Origin: Liolophura sinensis
Taxonomy: Eukaryota > Mollusca > Polyplacophora > Chitonida > Chitonidae
Direction of reading: 5' to 3'
DNA: 64,000 bases
Assembly: GCF_032854445.1 (NCBI RefSeq)
Contig: NC_088302.1
Span: forward strand, 32,953,979-33,017,978
The notes under the pieces were generated by a model. It had not been told where the DNA came from. It did not search any database and saw nothing but the letters and a program-made list of their open reading frames with translations. Numbering within the stretch: position 1 is the first letter of the stretch; each line of letters opens with the position of its first letter. Below are positions 38,099 to 49,100 of the stretch, in pieces. Made by a program: the position numbers and the translations under genes.

Positions 38099-41000
38099 AT
38101 GACCCTGTTGATGAAGTCATGCGGTTTGAAGTGCAGAGCTTCATCTGTGTGCAGAAGTTTTATAAGATTCACCCAGCCTAGCACACAAAAACCATGGTGC
38201 AGGGGAATTCATGAGTTGAGAACGAAAGAGAAAATGTGCATGAATACTTGGAGGGATCAATTAAGTCTTACGAGAGCCTTTGCCACTAGGCCTGCCAACG
38301 AGGAAAACATTTTGAGGGATGAAAGAAAGGCTGTGTGGAGAGATACCTCCATTAGGCGCCCTCATTCTGACCTCTACTTCCCAGAGGAAGAAAATGAACA
38401 TTTCCATTTGGTCCTGGAAAGAATGCCAGAATACAAAGACAAACTGATGTACGTTACAGCTTCAGCAGAGATTCCAGATGTTGGAGGAACAGAGGAGAGT
38501 TGTGGCAGTTTGCTTGCCATGAATGACCTGCCTACAGATATAGAGACTGAAATGTCCTTCCTAGAAAGACTTTCAAATTTGCCCCCAAGCGCGAAACATG
38601 GTCTGCTGCAGGATTCATGCTTTAAGTCTCTGTGCCTCTCAGCCTTGTCAAAAGTAGAAAATTTGTCTGATCAACAGTTCTTTAAAATGTTGCAAGTCCT
38701 GTCAAGGTTTGGATTTCGCAAAGCAATTCATGGTGAAGCCAGAACATTTCGTTTTTCTGTTCACAGCACGGTTATCAAAGAATGTGACAGGAGATATGAC
38801 AGGAACAACTGGAACCTTCAACAACTGTTCTTGGCAGCCGATTTCCACTTTGCCACAAGATGCAGTGCATTTCTCCGCTCCGGCAGTGTTGCTCATTTAC
38901 ACGACAGGATACAAACACAGTTGAAACATCTTTCAAAGACAGAATTAGTCTTATTTATGTATCATTGTGGTGTTTCAAGGCAAATAACTAAAAGTGCAGT
39001 TCCTCAGATCTTGGAGAAGGTCTTGGACCAGTTTGAAATGTTAAACTTTGAAGAATTAGCAATTATATGTATAGGATTGTTTAAGACCAACAATATTATT
39101 TACATGCCTCAATTCCTCACCAAACTGTCACAAAGAGTTCACCGGGACATGGCCACAGCAAGCCACTTGGCTTTGTCTGCTGTCTTCAAAACCCTGTGCA
39201 AATCTGCCAACAAAAATACTTCCAGGTATAATTCTGACTTTCAGGAGGTTTTGGTGTCTTTGCTGGACAAGTCCACAACAGTGTTACCAGATCTTCCATT
39301 TTCTACCTTTATTCACATTTTCCGCTTCTTCTTGGGTGTTCACTGGATGAGTGAAGCTTTTCTGGCAACTCTTGTTGAGACAGTTTTAAAGGATGAAGTC
39401 TCTAAGTGGAGAGTTAAAGAAATTTCGCGTTTCCTCTTCCATCTCTGCAATTTCACTTGTTTCTCCGGAGACCCTAAGTTTCAGAGGGTTATAGAAGTAC
39501 TCCTTGGAGAGTTTCGAGATCAACGTCGACGAAAGGAATTTCAGATGTTCCCAGAAAGCCTTTTGCAAGGCTTGGTTGGCCTTTCCTTTGTTGATGTTTA
39601 CGATGAAGAATTGACAGACTTTCTTTTTGGGAATGATTTTCAAGATCGTCTGTCAGCTCAGAGGAAAAGTAAATTATACATTTGTATAGAATAAGATACA
39701 AGTTAATATGAACATAATAAGTAAATTGATTGTCAAGTGAGCGCCGGGGACTGACTGAAAACCAACGTTTAAGCACTAATCCACAAAATACAGTTTTTGT
39801 TTCAGTTTTTTTCATGTATTTAAGGGCTTAAGATGTAAATTTGTAGTAACCTATATCACCGTTTTATTTTGTGTTTAGTTTCAGCGTCTTTTATTAAATA
39901 GACGTGTTGTCATTTCAGGTTTGCAAAAAGTCGACTTTATTCGAGACTTATTTCAGTTAGACAGAAGCCTGAAGATTGATCGCCCTGATTACCATGGCAA
40001 CCATCTCGCAACAACAGTCAAAAACATGTCTGATATTCCAATGGTAAGCGAAAATCAAATATGCATATGCAAGTCAAAAACTCCATTTCAGTTTTTCATT
40101 TTTTGTTAATATATGTTCTCCAGCAATTTCAAGGAATATTCAGCTGAAATTTAATGTGAAGATTATTTGATTTGTTAAGCTTATTTATAGGCTCATTTTA
40201 ATACAACATGATGCATTATGAAATTTGACTGTGTGATAAATTAAGTAAATTTGAGGGCTTAACTTAAAACAAACTCCTTGAATGTCCTTAAACAAAATCT
40301 AGGAAGAGCCTAGTCTTGCATTTGATTTAAAACATGTTAGGAAATGACCAAATTAAAGGTGTACATGTACATATATAAATGCATGAATAAGATTGTAGAT
40401 AAAATATGGAAGTCAATACGCAAGTAACAACTAGTATGAAAAACTAGTATGAAACGCCAACAACTGTGATATTACCCTTGGCCAGAATGGAATATAAGGT
40501 TGTATGTTGTAAGCTGCTTCATCTATTATATATTGTAGAACCCAACCAGGCAAGTTTCAAGGGTTAATAGTATCCGTGATGTCATTCTGAAGGAAGTGAT
40601 GTGTGAACTGGTCAGCCTACTGGGTGGTCAGGACTACCTCCGTGTTGGTCATTTACTTCCTCACTATCACACCACTGGTAAGTGTGTCAAAACTTGACCA
40701 TCTAACTGGTCACTGACTTGTCAGAACTATCTACGTGCACCTGTGGGTCATCTACTTCATCACTACCACACCACAGGTATGTGTATTAACACCAGACCAC
40801 CACACTGGTCAGTGGTCAGAACTACCTCTGTGCTGGTCATTTACTTCCTCACTACCACACCACTGGTAAGTGTGTCAAAACTTGACCATCTAACTGGTCA
40901 CTGACTTGTCAGAACTATCTACGTGCACCTGTGGGTCATCTACTCCATCACTACCACACCACAGGTATGTGTATTAACACCAGACCACCACACTGGTCAG

Positions 41001-44000
41001 TGGTCAGAACTACCTCCGTGCTGGTCATTTACTTCTTCACTATCACACCACTGGTAAGTGTGTCAAAACTTGACCGTCTAACTGGTCACTCGCTTGTTAG
41101 AACTATTTACATGCACCTGTACTCCCTCACTATCACACCACTGGTAAGTGTGTCAAAACTTGACCATCTAACTGGTCACTCGCTTGTTAGAACTATTTAC
41201 ATGCACCTGTGGGTCATCTACTCCATCACTACCACACCACACCAATATGTGTATTAACACCAGACCACCACACTGGTCAGTGGTCAGAACTACCTCCGTG
41301 CTGGTCATTTACTTCCTCACTACCACACCACAGGACTATTTCCCTGTTGATCTTTATCGACCCACAGATGGATTAAAATTTGACAAAGCTTATAGTACAA
41401 TACAGCAGTTGTTGCTCAAGGCTCTGTGAGTGAAGGATCAGAACAAGTTATTTGTATGACATCTACATATACACAAAGGGGTATACTCCTTGGTATCAGC
41501 GTAAGTTTAGCCAGGGGTGCATGCATGTGCTCTTGGTTTCCTATGTCCTACTTAGCAATTTTTCAGTCATGTGACAATGATGACGAGTCAATAGATGTGT
41601 GTCCATATACTGTTTCTTCATAGAGGGCGAGTCCATGGCATGCTGTCACTTAAATATCATGCTGGAGACACCAGACATGACACCCTCCCAGTCACATTTT
41701 ACTGACACCGACCAACCAAGCAACAAGTGAGGCAGTAACATGTAACTTTTTGAAACTCTTTGGTATGACCTGACCTGACTTTGAGGTGGACGAACTAACC
41801 ATTATGCCTCCTGAAACTCGGTGCATAAGTTTTGCAGATATAATAAATTCCACGATTCTCGTTAGTTGTTGGTTCTGTGCCATAACTGCTCCATGTATTG
41901 TCTCATTTAGATAAAATTTAATGTGCAGGTTCATTTTGTTGAACCACAGATCGAGTTTGAAAACCAGCTTGCACCTTTGGCATTATATAGAAACTCTCTG
42001 AATTTGCTAGCCCTTTTAAAAATGTATCGAATTTAGCACTGAGATATTGACTTCTCATTATAAAATGCCAAAATTGCAAAATTGACATGAATTGTAACCT
42101 CTGCCTTTGTATTCTTTTGTAGATATAGAAGTGAGGTTAGGTGAAGATGGGAAACCCATCCCTGTGCGAGAATGGACAACTTCAAGCACAACTGCACAAA
42201 CTTCACAACAACAACAACCTGGAAACCTTCATAAATTGTTAGTAGATCTCTCAGTTCTACAGAAACAGCAAAGGTGGGTAAATAAATCAAGCTTATTTTC
42301 AAATCTTAATAGAACATGTTTAACATGTTGTTGGATGTACAGATATTATAATTACTTGAATTTGTGTCACCTTAAATTGGTTTTACTTTCAGACCATCAG
42401 TGGTGATATTTTGCTGATCTCAAACTACTTGATCTATTACAAATCATTTCATTTCACTTTAAGTCCAGTGGTTTGCGAAGTTTGGCTGATCATGAGTGTG
42501 TGACTGTAGCAGCGTGGAGTTGCCCATGACGTTATACATTGACTTTGGAGAACGGCATTGGCTGCCGAGTTTGGCTAAAAATTTAAATATGAACATGGCT
42601 TAATACCAGGATGAGCTAATAGACTCGAACAACTGGGCCCAGAACTGGCAATCATGCTTATTTTTTTTTTTTTTTTTTTTTTGATTGTTATTTTGTGCCA
42701 TACTCCAAAATTTTCACTCATATGATAAGTACCTGGTTGGGATGGCTTCACTGTCACTAATGGGATGTTTGCCTGACCATGTGTATTTGTATGTATGCTG
42801 TTTGTATTTTAGGTCACGCTTAACAATTTTTCAGTTGTATAACGAAGAGTCTGTGGGTGTGTGTACATATACTGTGTCTTCTTGTGGCAGAGCCAGTCCG
42901 TTGAAGTGTCATGCTGAAAATGCCAGACATGACATCCCATTGTTGTCAGTCACATCACACCGACAGTGTTGACGTTTGGTTATCTCTCAATATCTGCCCT
43001 GCTTTCGCCTTCAAACTGAGTGTTCTGATGTTTAGCTGAACATCTAATTTTATTGTGCTGATTTCTCTTTCAGGCTGACAGTGTTGACGTTTGCTTATCT
43101 CCCAATATCTGCCCTGCTTTTGCTGTCAAACTGAGAGTTCTGATTTTTAGCTGGACGTCTAATTTTATTGCACTGTTTTCACTTACAGACTGGCATTGGT
43201 GATGTTTGGGCCCAACTGTTACCATGTGTACAGAGATAAGGGAGGTCACTCTTCCAAGCAACTCCTTGGTCTTCATCAGATGAAGCTTAGGCATCTGGCA
43301 TGCTCTGGTTTTACTAACATACAGGTCAGGCCATCTTCTGTGCACACTGATTGGTCATTTTGGTTGATAAAATATATTTTCTATTTGTGGTGTTTTTTTA
43401 CACTATTTTATATAGAACAGAAAACAAAGGGTAGCAGTTTGTTTAACAGCCAATTAAATATTCATGTTAAAGTCTGATGAATGTATTGCCTTGTGTGCAT
43501 TGAATATTGCTACAGATGTATCGTCACATTCAGGCCTCACCAATTCAAGTAGTTGTTATACAAGCAGAGTACTGTAAATCTTCAACCTTTGTCAACCACC
43601 AAAGCACTTTAAGTGAAATTTATGCATACAATTGTTATGAAAATAACAAGAAAAACTAAAAGTGAAAGCTTCATAAAACTGTGCAGATTATAGTTCTCTC
43701 AGAATGTTTCTAAATATTGGTCACTGAGGTGGTTGAAACGGTTGAAGAATTAGGGTACCAATGACGGAGGGTATAAGAGTAAAACTTTACCAGCAATATT
43801 TTCCTATTGAATACCTATTTACATGATGGGAAAACCTTAAAAAACAGGGAAATCATAAAAATATCAAGATCGGCAAAAACAAAAAGATGGATTTTTAGTT
43901 TTATTTTGATTTCATTTTAGGACTTTTCTGTGCCGGCTCACCTCTAAAACACAAAGAAAATTAGTGTTGCCTTATTAATCACAGTAATTTCTGACCCGCC

Positions 44001-44295
44001 CAACTCAATAATGTACTAGTATTTAGTTCTAGCAGAATGTTGTTGACATGAATCACTTCAATTTTTTTTTTTTGGTGAGTTTGTTGATACCACAGTAGTA
44101 CTTCAGTATTGCTGAAGTGGCGTTAAGCTTTAATCATTCTTTATGGCATAGTGCTTAATGTCCAAAACAATGGTATTGTGTGAATTGAGAATTTTTTCTC
44201 TTTTTGTTTTACAGATTCCTTATTTTGAATTTAATCAGGCCTCTGATCGTAGTAGCTACTTGAAACATAAACTCTTCGGGCAAGACTCCAGGTAG
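38099..44295 (+). CDS. FASTK-family mitochondrial RNA-processing protein (FASTKD-like), six exons, complete
   Basis: Exons 38099-39668, 39919-40043, 40539-40677, 42123-42273, 43189-43324 and 44215-44295 join with GT-AG introns and consistent phase into 733 codons plus a stop. Seen: the first ~38 residues are rich in Arg/Lys/Ser and lack acidic residues, as in a mitochondrial presequence. A long Leu-rich helical region follows. Exon 2 carries a FAST_2-like stretch (LQKVDFIRDLFQLDRSLKI). Exons 3-4 join as HLLPHYHTTDIEVRLGEDG. Exons 5-6 form a C-terminal RAP domain (about residues 662-725; VMFGPNCYHVYRDK, then HLACSGFTNIQ-IPYFEF). Known: FASTKD proteins bind and process mitochondrial transcripts, and RAP is a nuclease-like RNA-binding fold. 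The length is within the FASTKD1-5 range. The large first exon and the order of domains fit FASTKD5 or a sister, but I cannot fix the paralogue. Start: this ATG is the first in its frame, shortly after a probable 5'UTR splice acceptor at 38076. Introns 3 and 4 are distorted by tandem duplications. The gene converges on GON4L. Confidence 0.93.
40625..41335 (+). repeat. 188-bp higher-order tandem array derived from exon 3 and its 5' splice site
   Basis: The exon-3 end plus donor (CACACCACTG|GTAAGTG) recurs with GGTAAG at 40677, 40865, 41053 and 41143: spacings 188, 188 and 90. Each 188-bp unit holds two related halves of about 94 bp that resemble the last ~55 nt of exon 3. Donor-like GTAAGT or GTATGT is retained in most halves. 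Confidence 0.85.
41540..41720 (-). mobile_element. Family B-related SINE variant in intron 3 of the FASTK-family gene
   Basis: Contains GCAATTTTTCAGTCATGTGA, then TCATGCTGGAGACACCAGAC and CCAGTCACATTTTACTGACA. The order matches family B on the reverse strand but the body differs. A second copy lies in intron 4. Confidence 0.55.
42660..42725 (-). mobile_element. Poly-T tract and family A 3' fragment in intron 4
   Basis: About 22 consecutive T precede GATTGTTATTTTGTGCCATA, a match to the family A 3' end. Confidence 0.4.
42810..42970 (-). mobile_element. Family B-related SINE variant in intron 4 of the FASTK-family gene
   Basis: The same variant as at 41.54 kb: ACAATTTTTCAGTTGTATAA, then GTGTCATGCTGAAAATGCCA and a final part-match to GACATCCCATTG..CACATCACACC. 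It ends next to a tandemly duplicated splice-acceptor region. Confidence 0.55.
42960..43205 (+). repeat. 115-bp tandem duplication covering the acceptor of the RAP exon
   Basis: GACAGTGTTGACGTTTG occurs at about 42962 and 43077. The corresponding third position is the true start of exon 5 (TGGCATTGGTGATGTTTG at 43191). Each copy has a TGCTGATTTCTCTTTCAG- or CTGTTTTCACTTACAG-like acceptor, so there is a decoy acceptor ending at 43074. Confidence 0.8.
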
Positions 44296-44662
44296 TAAAG
44301 CAGAGAGGAGCGTATGTACTTGGTGGGTAATCATGTGTACAGTAACAAGGAACCTCTTAAAATTTTAGCATGTTTTATAGCACACATTTTACTTGAATAT
44401 AAAAGGCTCTGATGGTCCAATTATCACATTTGGTTTGTTTGTTTTTTTTATTCCATTTGTGCACAATGCTATACTCAGGACTTCACGGTATAGAAGACGG
44501 TGTATTTAACAGGCGGTACATATAACTGGGAATCTTTTCCACACGTGCCAAAGATTGTTACCATAAGTCAAATTAAGATCAAGGTTTCTCCAGTGATCTT
44601 TATTACAGACTGCCTTGCTGTTGACCACTGTTCAGCAAGAGTTGATATGTCAGTTACCAATA

Positions 44663-44930
44663 TTTTATTTATTTATTTGATTGGTATTTTGCGCCATACT
44701 CAAGAATATTTCACTTATATGACGGCGACCAGCATTATGGTGGGAGGAAACCGGGCAGAGCCTGGGGGAAACCCACGACCATCCGCAGGTTGCTGACAGA
44801 CCTTCCCACGTACGACCGGAGAGGAAGCCAGCATGAGCTGCTCTTGAACTCATAGCGACCGCATTGGTGAAAGGCTTCTGGGTTACTACGCCGCGCTAGC
44901 GCGCTAACCGACTGAGCCACAGAGGCCCCA
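44663..44930 (-). mobile_element. SINE family A, full length, with perfect 13-bp target-site duplication
   Basis: The complete reverse element runs from its (ATTT)n tail through the middle to CGACTGAGCCACAGAGGCCC. The direct repeat TCAGTTACCAATA flanks it at 44650-44662 and 44931-44943, giving an exact 268-bp insertion. It lies about 370 nt past the FASTK-family stop, probably in or near its 3'UTR. Confidence 0.9.
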
Positions 44931-45191
44931 TCAGTTACCAATAATTAAACTATTTATTTGAAGTCCAATTTTCACTTAGCTGTCAGCGTCATGGATGGAG
45001 GTAAGCGGAGTATGATGGAGGAAGAATCAGGTTGCCAGCTGGAATCCAGCTCTTGCTACCTTAGCTGCCTGACAGGAGCCTTGTCAGGCACTTGACAAAG
45101 GAAGTGGTTTTTCACTCGTGTTGCACAGTGAGTCAGGAGCCTCTCCCTAATGCAGTCAATGTAAGTTAATGTCCAGTTCTCAGAGTCACTG

Positions 45192-46184: not shown

Positions 46185-49100
46185 TCAGGACCCAGCCTCC
46201 CCTGTACGTGCCCCACCCTGCTGCTGGCTCTTCATCAACAGGCTCATCAGCTCTCCAAACCTCTCCCGTACCTGGCAAGGGAAGTACATTGAGAAAGTCA
46301 ATATTTTCCACCCAAAAGAAAGATCATCAAATAAATGCAGTAGACAAAGAAAACAATAACAATTACAATAACCATTACACTTCCAATGACTTTTATGAAG
46401 AAATTATGTTTAAATTTACCTGTATTTGCAAAGCTGACTTCATACTCTTCATATATCATTTCCACAACAATATGAAGAGCAGTAAGCTACCCATTGACCA
46501 GCTACCTTTATCAACATATTACCTATTACAGTTTCGTGTATCTCTGAACGCTATTTCATATATTTCCTAAATTCTTGCTTATCTCATTTGCACAACAATA
46601 GGAAGAGCAGGACCATGCACTCAGTTGTTGACACAATCCATCATATAGATTCATGCATGTACACACAATCCTTACAGTGCGTATACCGCTCTCTGTGCTT
46701 TCTTTACATCACTGCCACCTCTAGAGAAGCTTGACCTTTGCATGTAGGCTAGCCTAGGCTTTGCCTCACCACTGGTGTCCTCAATTTAATCACCATTCAT
46801 ATATCAGTGTTTCAGGCCTTGGTTGGATTTATGATGTGTATACTTTAGATGACAGCAATGTGTATAAAATATCAGAAGCCTCAGCCTTGACCAAGATTTC
46901 TATACAAAATCTGCTCGTGGTAGGAATGAAGTAAAGCGAATGTAGAGAGTGACGCACACACTGTCAGGAGTATGGTATGTAAATTAAATGATGAAATAAA
47001 TACTATTATCTTATATGTTTTACTACAAGTCCAAAGTGGAAACTTGTCTGTAGCAGACACTTGAATACAAAACATCCCCACATGTTACTGTCCATTAAAC
47101 AACTACAATGAGTCACGAATTTTGTAATTTATGGTAATTAATATGAACACAGTACACATACATTAACGATGGAACATACCTCTCATGTTATCATAATCTA
47201 CACGTTTATAAAACCTGAGTTCAATACATGCAATACTTCTTAAGATACCACCCATAACATTTACTTTAATATTACCTTCCCTGTTATTACACACCATCAA
47301 AACTTGGAGAATGACATATGCTACAGGTGGGCTAACAAGCAGAATCTCCATTTGTAAACTGAACTTTGTTTATACAGACTAATACTTTAATAAGAGACAC
47401 ACCTGACCATTATAGACATGGGCAAAAACCACAGTTTAGCGGAAATATGTTACCTGTGTTTCTGTCCTGTCTGTTAACTGTTTAGCAATGCCCTGGAAGG
47501 TTGCATCGGAGGGACCTGTGCATTTACACATCTCCAGGATCAGGCGATCAGCAGCCCTGAAAAATACACACCACTTTCATTTTATACTTATTAACTTGAT
47601 TGATGTTTAAAGCTGTGATCAATAGTCCTTTCACTTATTAAAAGATGGGCACCCACCAGAAGATGTGCATATGGGAAAACCAGACTGCCCGGAGTATCCA
47701 TTAGGTCTGTGACTAACCTTCTGACTTACAGCCACAGTTGTATATGAGGAGAAAACCAGACTGCCCAGAGTATCCATCAGGTCTGCGAACAACCTTCTGA
47801 CTTACAGCCACAGTTGTATATGAGGAGAAAACCAGACTGCCCGGAAAATCCATTAGGTCTGTGACCAACCTTCTGACTTAAAGCCACAGTCATATATGAG
47901 GAGAAAACCAGACTGCCCGGAAAATCCATTAGGTCTGTGACCAACCTTCTGACTTAAAGCCACAGTCATGTATGAGGAGAAAACCAGACTGCCCAGAGTA
48001 TCCATCAGATCTGAGACCAACCTTCTGACTTACAGCCACAGTTGTATATGAGGAGAAAACCAGACTGCCCGGAAAATCCATTAGGTCTGTGACCAACCTT
48101 CTGACTTAAAGCCACAGTCATATATGAGGAGAAAACCAGACTGCCCGGAGTATCCATCAGGTCTGTGACCAACCCTCTTGACTTGCAGCCACAGTGGTAG
48201 GAGAAAACCAGAGTGCCCAGAGTAAGGTCCCTGAAGACATTCTGACATAAAGCCATGCTTGATTTTACTCTGCACCTTTACTGGCCAGGGGCTGATCATT
48301 CGGGCTTCAGCGGAATGAACCAGTGACAACCAAAGGTGACACTTACTGCAAGGCACAACACCTGGTAGTGTGCCTTTTTTCCAGTTACATCATTACCACA
48401 ATGGAGCCACACGTTAGTGCAAAATCATGCGGCCTATCTACAGCATGGCAGAGCTACCTATCAACCTTTTTTTACATGGCAGTATTTGTGTGTAAATAAA
48501 ACCGCCATAATACCACAATTTTTGCACAATTACATTTTGACCTAAAAATTCACCCTTGAATATAATCTAAAAGATTACTCTAATCTTGTTTACTTCTATA
48601 TTCTACAGGCTTTGTCGTGTTAAAATGAGAAGGTTGACCCTACTGTGCTGTAAGGCAAGGCTATGTGGCGAAGCAACAATATATCACACAATTTGCATAT
48701 TAATACTACTTCCCTGTGACAATGTACCAGCTAATCTGATCTAGGCTGAATGAAGAACATCAAACTACAAGAAAACACATTGGTTTGTTTGTGCTGTCAC
48801 ACTCCAATGCTTCTGTGCAACCGAAGTGTTCTAGGAGCACACATGCACCAAGTAGTGTGATGTATTGCAGGAAAGTACAATACAGTGCACAGATTTGGAC
48901 CACTTTGTTAAAGGCAAGGAGTTTTATGAGTTACATCTACATATGATAATTTATTATCATTACCACAATCCGATGAAACTTAATTTCTACAGTACTCACT
49001 TCGTCCATGTCGGTTCTTGTGTCCCTTGACTTGAATCTGGAATAGGATATGATGACAAGCCAGTCCTGGAAATGCTCTCGGCAGTTATCTCCCCTGGTTC

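Follow-up and report, generated by a model that had tools for sequence, protein, structure and literature searches.

Which 5' splice site ends an exon when the 3' end of this exon and its own donor have been copied several times into the following intron? This question is raised by exon 3 of a FASTK-family gene on the plus strand of a 64,000-nucleotide stretch of the chiton Liolophura sinensis (contig NC_088302.1, positions 32,953,979 to 33,017,978), hereafter called the window, whose own numbering is used for all positions in this gene. According to the reports on this genome, the assembly was first published under the name Liolophura japonica (PMC11068029) and the species name was corrected later (PMC12441733).

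An original prediction made from the letters of the DNA had described a tandem repeat of the end of exon 3 together with its donor, and our analysis confirmed this description. We consider it very probable that the repeat is a minisatellite of the type named 'mirage' in amphioxus, which would have arisen by tandem duplication over the exon 3/intron 3 boundary and would have expanded inside the intron by unequal exchange, with the first donor being the one that is chosen. The duplication itself can be read directly from the DNA, while the choice of the first donor is what we infer.

The duplicated end of exon 3

The array (40624..41333, plus strand) was delimited by tandem repeats finder (TRF), monomer alignment and BLAST, and is built of a dimer of about 188 bp that consists of an A and a B monomer. 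The repeated stretch comprises the last 54–71 nt of exon 3 (40539..40677), which form the seed of the array, together with the 5' splice site, all in register and followed by an intronic flank common to the copies. TRF called a period of 188 bp at 40624-41120 (2.6 copies, 95% matches, score 910) and an overlapping 90-bp phase at 41030-41210. A BLAST search with exon 3, extended by its 60-nt flanks, returned seven more matches to the exon end within the window, with E values ranging from 2e-50 to 3e-10, which together with the monomer alignment bears out the predicted derivation of the array from the end of exon 3 and its donor. The 188-bp repeat in intron 3 was also predicted correctly, but the statement that it fills the intron was too strong, as 656 of 1,445 nt (45%) lie inside the array.

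In the monomer alignment, type A resembles exon 3, type B has an inserted stretch and a GTATGTG donor directly preceded by CAG, and one monomer is a B/A hybrid. All six donors that had been predicted to follow near copies of the exon end are present. Four of them read GTAAGTG, namely the authentic site at 40678..40684 and the decoys in copies A2 (40866..40872), A3 (41054..41060) and C, the hybrid monomer (41144..41150); the other two read GTATGTG and are found in copies B1 (40777..40783) and B2 (40965..40971), where the AG before the GT makes an additional use as acceptor possible. The donor of copy B3 (41243..41249) is dead, with 4 of 9 matches to the consensus, and the final copy has no donor and breaks off at 41333, precisely at the point that corresponds to the end of the exon. 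When the exon copy is counted, six of the eight units thus hold an intact donor, and two of the seven intronic copies have none. The intact donors are strong and nearly identical, as expected from the prediction: each agrees with the consensus at 8 of 9 positions and has a U1 duplex energy of either -11.0 or -10.2. On the plus strand of the whole window, 11 sites show at least 8 of 9 matches to CAGGTAAGT, and 6 of these 11 are located inside the array.

Repeats are where assemblies fail, and a false expansion therefore has to be considered. Such an artefact is nevertheless very unlikely, given that the HiFi reads reported for this assembly have a mean length of 8.3 kb at 14x (PMC11068029), an order of magnitude above the 0.7-kb array, and that the copies carry private differences. 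Five differences separate units 1 and 2 of the array (188 sites), four at the 54 exonic sites and one at the 134 others (Fisher p 0.025, from one comparison); this hints that the exon may have been held while the intronic copies were homogenised.

The array DNA was also searched against the 609-Mb genome (632 contigs), where its single match was the array itself on contig C8, so that an origin from a transposon or a dispersed satellite is unsupported. In this search, which covered one assembly, the counts of repeats are lower bounds. A search for relatives of the array by exact pattern gave no match in viral_contigs, and 44 pattern matches, of which none was confirmed, in genome_contigs.

The 3' edge of the array bears on how the intron came about. 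Directly after the array an open frame of 31 codons (41334-41425; DYFPVDLYRP...) ends at GTGAGT, and the last copy stops exactly where the exon would end; both facts would suit a gain of the intron by the array, with the last copy, CACCACAG followed by GAC at 41333, as acceptor and 41334-41425 as the old exon. We give this reading hardly any weight. The frame is out of phase with both exon 3 and exon 4, the C-terminus is lost in every modelled mRNA that uses it, neither Pfam nor the PDB gave a match, and the intron runs 789 nt further to the acceptor at 42123. Additionally, the site at 41333 may be the junction with a decayed older copy at 41334..41358 (plus strand), a post hoc candidate which matches exon 3 at 18 of 25 positions and copy A2 at 15 of 25. 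At least 18 of 25 matches are reached at 6 of 63975 positions of the window, four of which are the exon and array copies, and the alignment score to the adjacent 104 nt was reached by 13–30 of 2000 shuffles. The decayed-copy reading is weakened by 47 of 300 shuffles that reach the score over the whole remaining intron once the overlapping CAG is excluded. As a hidden in-frame exon, 41334-41425 was rejected on the same absence of Pfam and PDB matches and of phases that fit a neighbouring exon.

Predicted use of the donors

The gene (38099..44295, plus strand) was modelled with six coding exons (38099-39668, 39919-40043, 40539-40677, 42123-42273, 43189-43324 and 44215-44295), which contain no internal stops and give a predicted protein of 733 aa; the start codon is a prediction, and the in-frame acceptor of exon 3 at 40539 was picked among several candidates. 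FAST_2 (3.2e-14) and RAP (4.2e-8) are both above the Pfam cut-offs, in agreement with the family originally named, and a weak match to FAST_1 (19.4 bits, E 0.00097) stays below its cut-off of 27.4 bits. An alignment to FASTKD4 (9gek_A) is weak, with E values of 0.0076 for the sequence and 0.21 for the stretch, and crosses the joins of exons 3/4 and 4/5; the join HYHTT-D-IEVRL is therefore supported.

For the prediction of splicing consequences, all paths over 7 donors and 4 acceptors were enumerated. The 59 paths lead to 42 distinct mRNAs, and only one of these, in which exon 3 ends at the 40678 donor and exon 4 begins at 42123, retains the 733-aa protein, as had been claimed for the first donor. 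The remaining 41 are truncated, 21 of them with a stop at 617 aa, suggesting that the use of decoys would be harmful or wasted. It is most likely that the decoys are normally ignored because the first donor closes exon 3.

It had been proposed originally that the array might tune splicing or act as a source of poison transcripts. In such a functional rheostat the extra donors would compete and route part of the pre-mRNA to premature-stop transcripts, and copy number would tune the output of the FASTK gene. The match of all six donors to 8 of 9 consensus positions at similar U1 energies would suit it, as would the truncation of every modelled decoy mRNA, and intronic minisatellites in C. elegans have been linked to multiple splicing decisions, according to PMC4039745. 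We nevertheless regard a rheostat as improbable, since no sign of selection on the decoys is seen: two of the intronic copies are without a donor, and the copy differences in FASTK are too few for a test.

Recursive splicing would leave the mRNA unchanged, with the B copies acting first as acceptor and then as donor (zero-length exons) and intron 3 being removed stepwise. The protein-keeping mRNA is indeed reached by 4 of the 59 paths, of which 3 are recursive via B1 and/or B2, and dual-specific AGGT sites are known; introns using them are reported to be 8.4-fold enriched in human tandem-repeat genes (PMC10809524). What makes this route rather far-fetched is the weak tract upstream of B1 and B2, where the longest pyrimidine run is 4, the first step, which would remove an intron of just 99 nt, and the sequence of the A-type donors, four of the intact six, in which CTG and not AG precedes the GT.

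Further arrays in the gene and in the genome

A second tandem duplication, called by TRF as 115 bp x 2.1 (42962..43208, plus strand), covers the acceptor of intron 4 and approximately the first 20 nt of exon 5, and represents an acceptor-side mirage in the same gene. The exon 5 region aligns to 43014-43093 in BLAST (80 nt, 82.5%, E 2e-18); when only the exonic part is scored, 2000 shuffles equal the two copies 6 and 10 times. Both the decoy acceptor, TTTCTCTTTCAG followed by G (43062..43073), and the authentic acceptor of exon 5, TTTCACTTACAG followed by A (43177..43188), are intact, and use of the decoy would, in the model, lead to a stop after residue 681 and not 733.

To place the FASTK gene among its surroundings, 284 kb were surveyed, consisting of the window, two adjacent stretches and 20 others taken at intervals from the first 14 Mb of C8, which is not a random sample of the genome. 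Arrays with a period of at least 30 make up 7.4% of the window and 9.7% of the 284 kb. Among the 62 arrays of this kind, four have units with a strong donor, compared to a mean of 0.75 in mononucleotide shuffles, where the highest of 200 was 4. These four are the FASTK array, which was the starting case, an array in a SERINC gene, one at which we saw no exon (L011) and one that runs off its stretch (L013), a peptide of which gave no Pfam family.

The SERINC array is the most extreme case seen. Here, the end of an exon (L031:2909-4398; C8, approximately 13.803-13.804 Mb) and its donor are repeated as 31 in-register units of 45 bp, the exon's own end included, each with 30 nt exonic and 15 nt intronic sequence; 29 strong donors, including the authentic one, are present. 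The identity of the gene follows from a match to Pfam Serinc (2.4e-31) across the join, and in the model all 29 tested downstream GTAAG donors bring in a stop codon immediately behind the exon. In a wider form of the rheostat, boundary-spanning minisatellites would occur genome-wide in chitons, and the FASTK array with six and the SERINC array with 29 strong donors would be copy-number-variable dials setting the share of premature-stop transcripts, which appears improbable to us. The conservation of the SERINC donor core AGGTAAG, for which 1 change was found versus 9.2 expected in 28 of the 31 units (the exon copy and two units with indels were left out), is not significant (0.07 when columns are drawn at random; a count this low in 6 of 45 circular windows) and so argues against a rheostat.

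On contig C1, an exon of Raptor (L038:531-751 and L041; approximately 2.111-2.112 Mb) was identified by a match to PDB 5h64 (5e-11), and the next two exons (2.7e-31) match the part of the chain that follows immediately. It is followed by one looser and one close copy of its end and donor, the latter with 26 matches over 27 aligned bases. Within this intron, a 62-bp array reaches the next acceptor; among its seven in-register acceptor words, the authentic one and a single decoy are CAG and the other five are CAA. Just past a further Raptor exon lies a 30-bp x 35.6 array (L041, joined Raptor coordinates 1573-2636), in a part of the gene where the introns consist mostly of tandem arrays.

Elsewhere on C1 (L037/L040, approximately 1.842-1.843 Mb), an exon ending in ...INTNCSGQHN precedes an array (45 bp x 15.6) with units that end in ACACAACAG followed by GTAAGC or in decayed forms of it. 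This exon is putatively Fringe-like; a PDB search with its peptide gave no match. At the start of C1, the flanks of eight donor arrays among the matches listed include one tested conserved exon (Raptor) and this presumably Fringe-like one, and six are without an identified exon.

Across the genome, spaced triples of AGGTAAG number 3160, compared to 1512, 1189 and 1081 for three motifs of the same composition (2.1–2.9 times commoner); these are overlapping matches weighted to large arrays and not distinct arrays, and most of the places listed come from one array near C1:1.375-1.382 Mb. Single AGGTAAG words outside arrays in the 284 kb are similar in number to the control motifs (31 vs 38, 17 and 31). 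We claim from this that the genome shows an excess of donor-bearing repeats, with no claim on the number of arrays. A 6-kb array at C1:1375382-1381670 has a unit of approximately 54 bp, with AGGTAAGG in many units and no exon identified at its start.

Relation to known systems and origin

In amphioxus, mirages have been described as minisatellite-like tandem duplications of exon-intron boundaries, on the 5' and the 3' side, in Adh3 and the globins BflGb6 and BflGb9 (PMC3087553), and further ones in PGBD5 and TnC (PMC3902484). In the chiton FASTK gene the repeat units likewise combine exonic with intronic sequence across a splice boundary, on the donor side as well as on the acceptor side, and splice signals are found in many units (six of eight donors; both acceptors of intron 4). 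Judged from this architecture the FASTK array is a mirage, hence of a known kind, found here in a new phylum, the molluscs. Unlike the arrays of the chordate amphioxus, it has a dimer of about 188 bp made of two diverged monomers, and two arrays are present in one gene. As far as these reports describe it, amphioxus mirages vary in length, and Adh3 and reverse-transcription PCR data suggest that splicing is undisturbed (PMC3087553); that arrays of the same type are reported not to disturb splicing (PMC3087553, PMC3902484) is a further argument against a rheostat in FASTK.

Mirages are not peculiar to amphioxus, given that a single mollusc genome has them in three genes or more. No report of mirages outside cephalochordates was found among the best-ranked matches in the open-access literature, in which human IFI6 and a potato case are close relatives of them. 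The IFI6 gene (G1P3, 6-16) contains a minisatellite with a short repeat unit of about 12 nt. Its units provide multiple donors after an exon, as in the FASTK array, with the difference that downstream units are reported to be used there, which results in three mRNA species (PMC4526556) and sets a precedent for a rheostat. In UBC and VCX3A, tandem dual-specific splice motifs repeat with the tandem unit, comparable to the AG before GT in the FASTK B copies, but coding units are spliced there in variable number according to PMC10809524, whereas the FASTK copies are intronic and out of frame. The duplication described in PMC4974935 also crosses an intron-exon boundary and carries the splice signals along; a new intron arose in that case, whereas the FASTK intron apparently existed before the duplication and was simply made longer by it.

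For the origin of the FASTK mirage, we propose that a first duplication of about 98 bp took place between two copies of ACTGGTCA, one in exon 3 (40607..40614) and one in the intron at 40705, which lie 98 bp apart and would have served as founding microhomology; the same 8-mer is found again at 40804, 40893, 40992, 41081, 41171 and 41272 (plus strand). Unequal exchange would then have expanded the dimer of A and B. The first donor lies 139 nt from the acceptor of exon 3 and would be picked by the spliceosome as the one that closes the defined exon; the decoys would leave with the intron, whereas occasional use of a decoy would result in a premature stop and a transcript that is probably degraded. 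The same process may stand behind the duplication at the intron-4 acceptor and the SERINC and Raptor arrays.

Several points weigh against this account. The case for the first donor comes from protein homology, and the decoys A2, A3 and C share the 9-mer and the U1 pairing energy (-11.0) of the authentic donor. At the decoy acceptor of intron 4 the pyrimidine run is 9, compared to 5 at the authentic one. Some mis-splicing would not surprise, because the decoys equal the real donor and the decoy acceptor has the longer pyrimidine run, and the repeat donors of IFI6 are indeed reported as used (PMC4526556). Two of the ten splice sites of the FASTK gene lie in arrays, which would be the case by chance in 17–25% at the local array density, and the gene is therefore not shown to be special. 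Finally, the haemocyanin domain model has 8 matches clustered on contig C8, and the haemocyanin gene (14.4 kb) has no such array; one TRF array lies upstream of its long frames, and its splice sites were not mapped singly.

Each of the arrays presents many copies of one donor in series, with near-identical flanks, in a conserved gene. Splice-site strength can therefore hardly discriminate between the copies, which makes these loci natural experiments on donor choice that could separate the distance to the upstream acceptor, the order of transcription and exon definition from each other. If array length varies between individuals, such arrays would also be a route for the growth of introns and for new splice sites.

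Elsewhere in the window, an array of 7.3 units of 76 bp (47675-48224, minus strand), several of which contain GTAAGT, appears to lie within the intron of a minus-strand gene; on reading the sequence we saw no exon at its start, and the flanking minus-strand frames have no Pfam family above the cut-off, so that it was not counted. Searches with Rfam at gathering scores and with ARAGORN found no structured RNA or tRNA in the window, and accordingly no tRNA was called by ARAGORN at 44660-44935, a stretch which, by its look, may be a tRNA-derived SINE of a kind common in molluscs.

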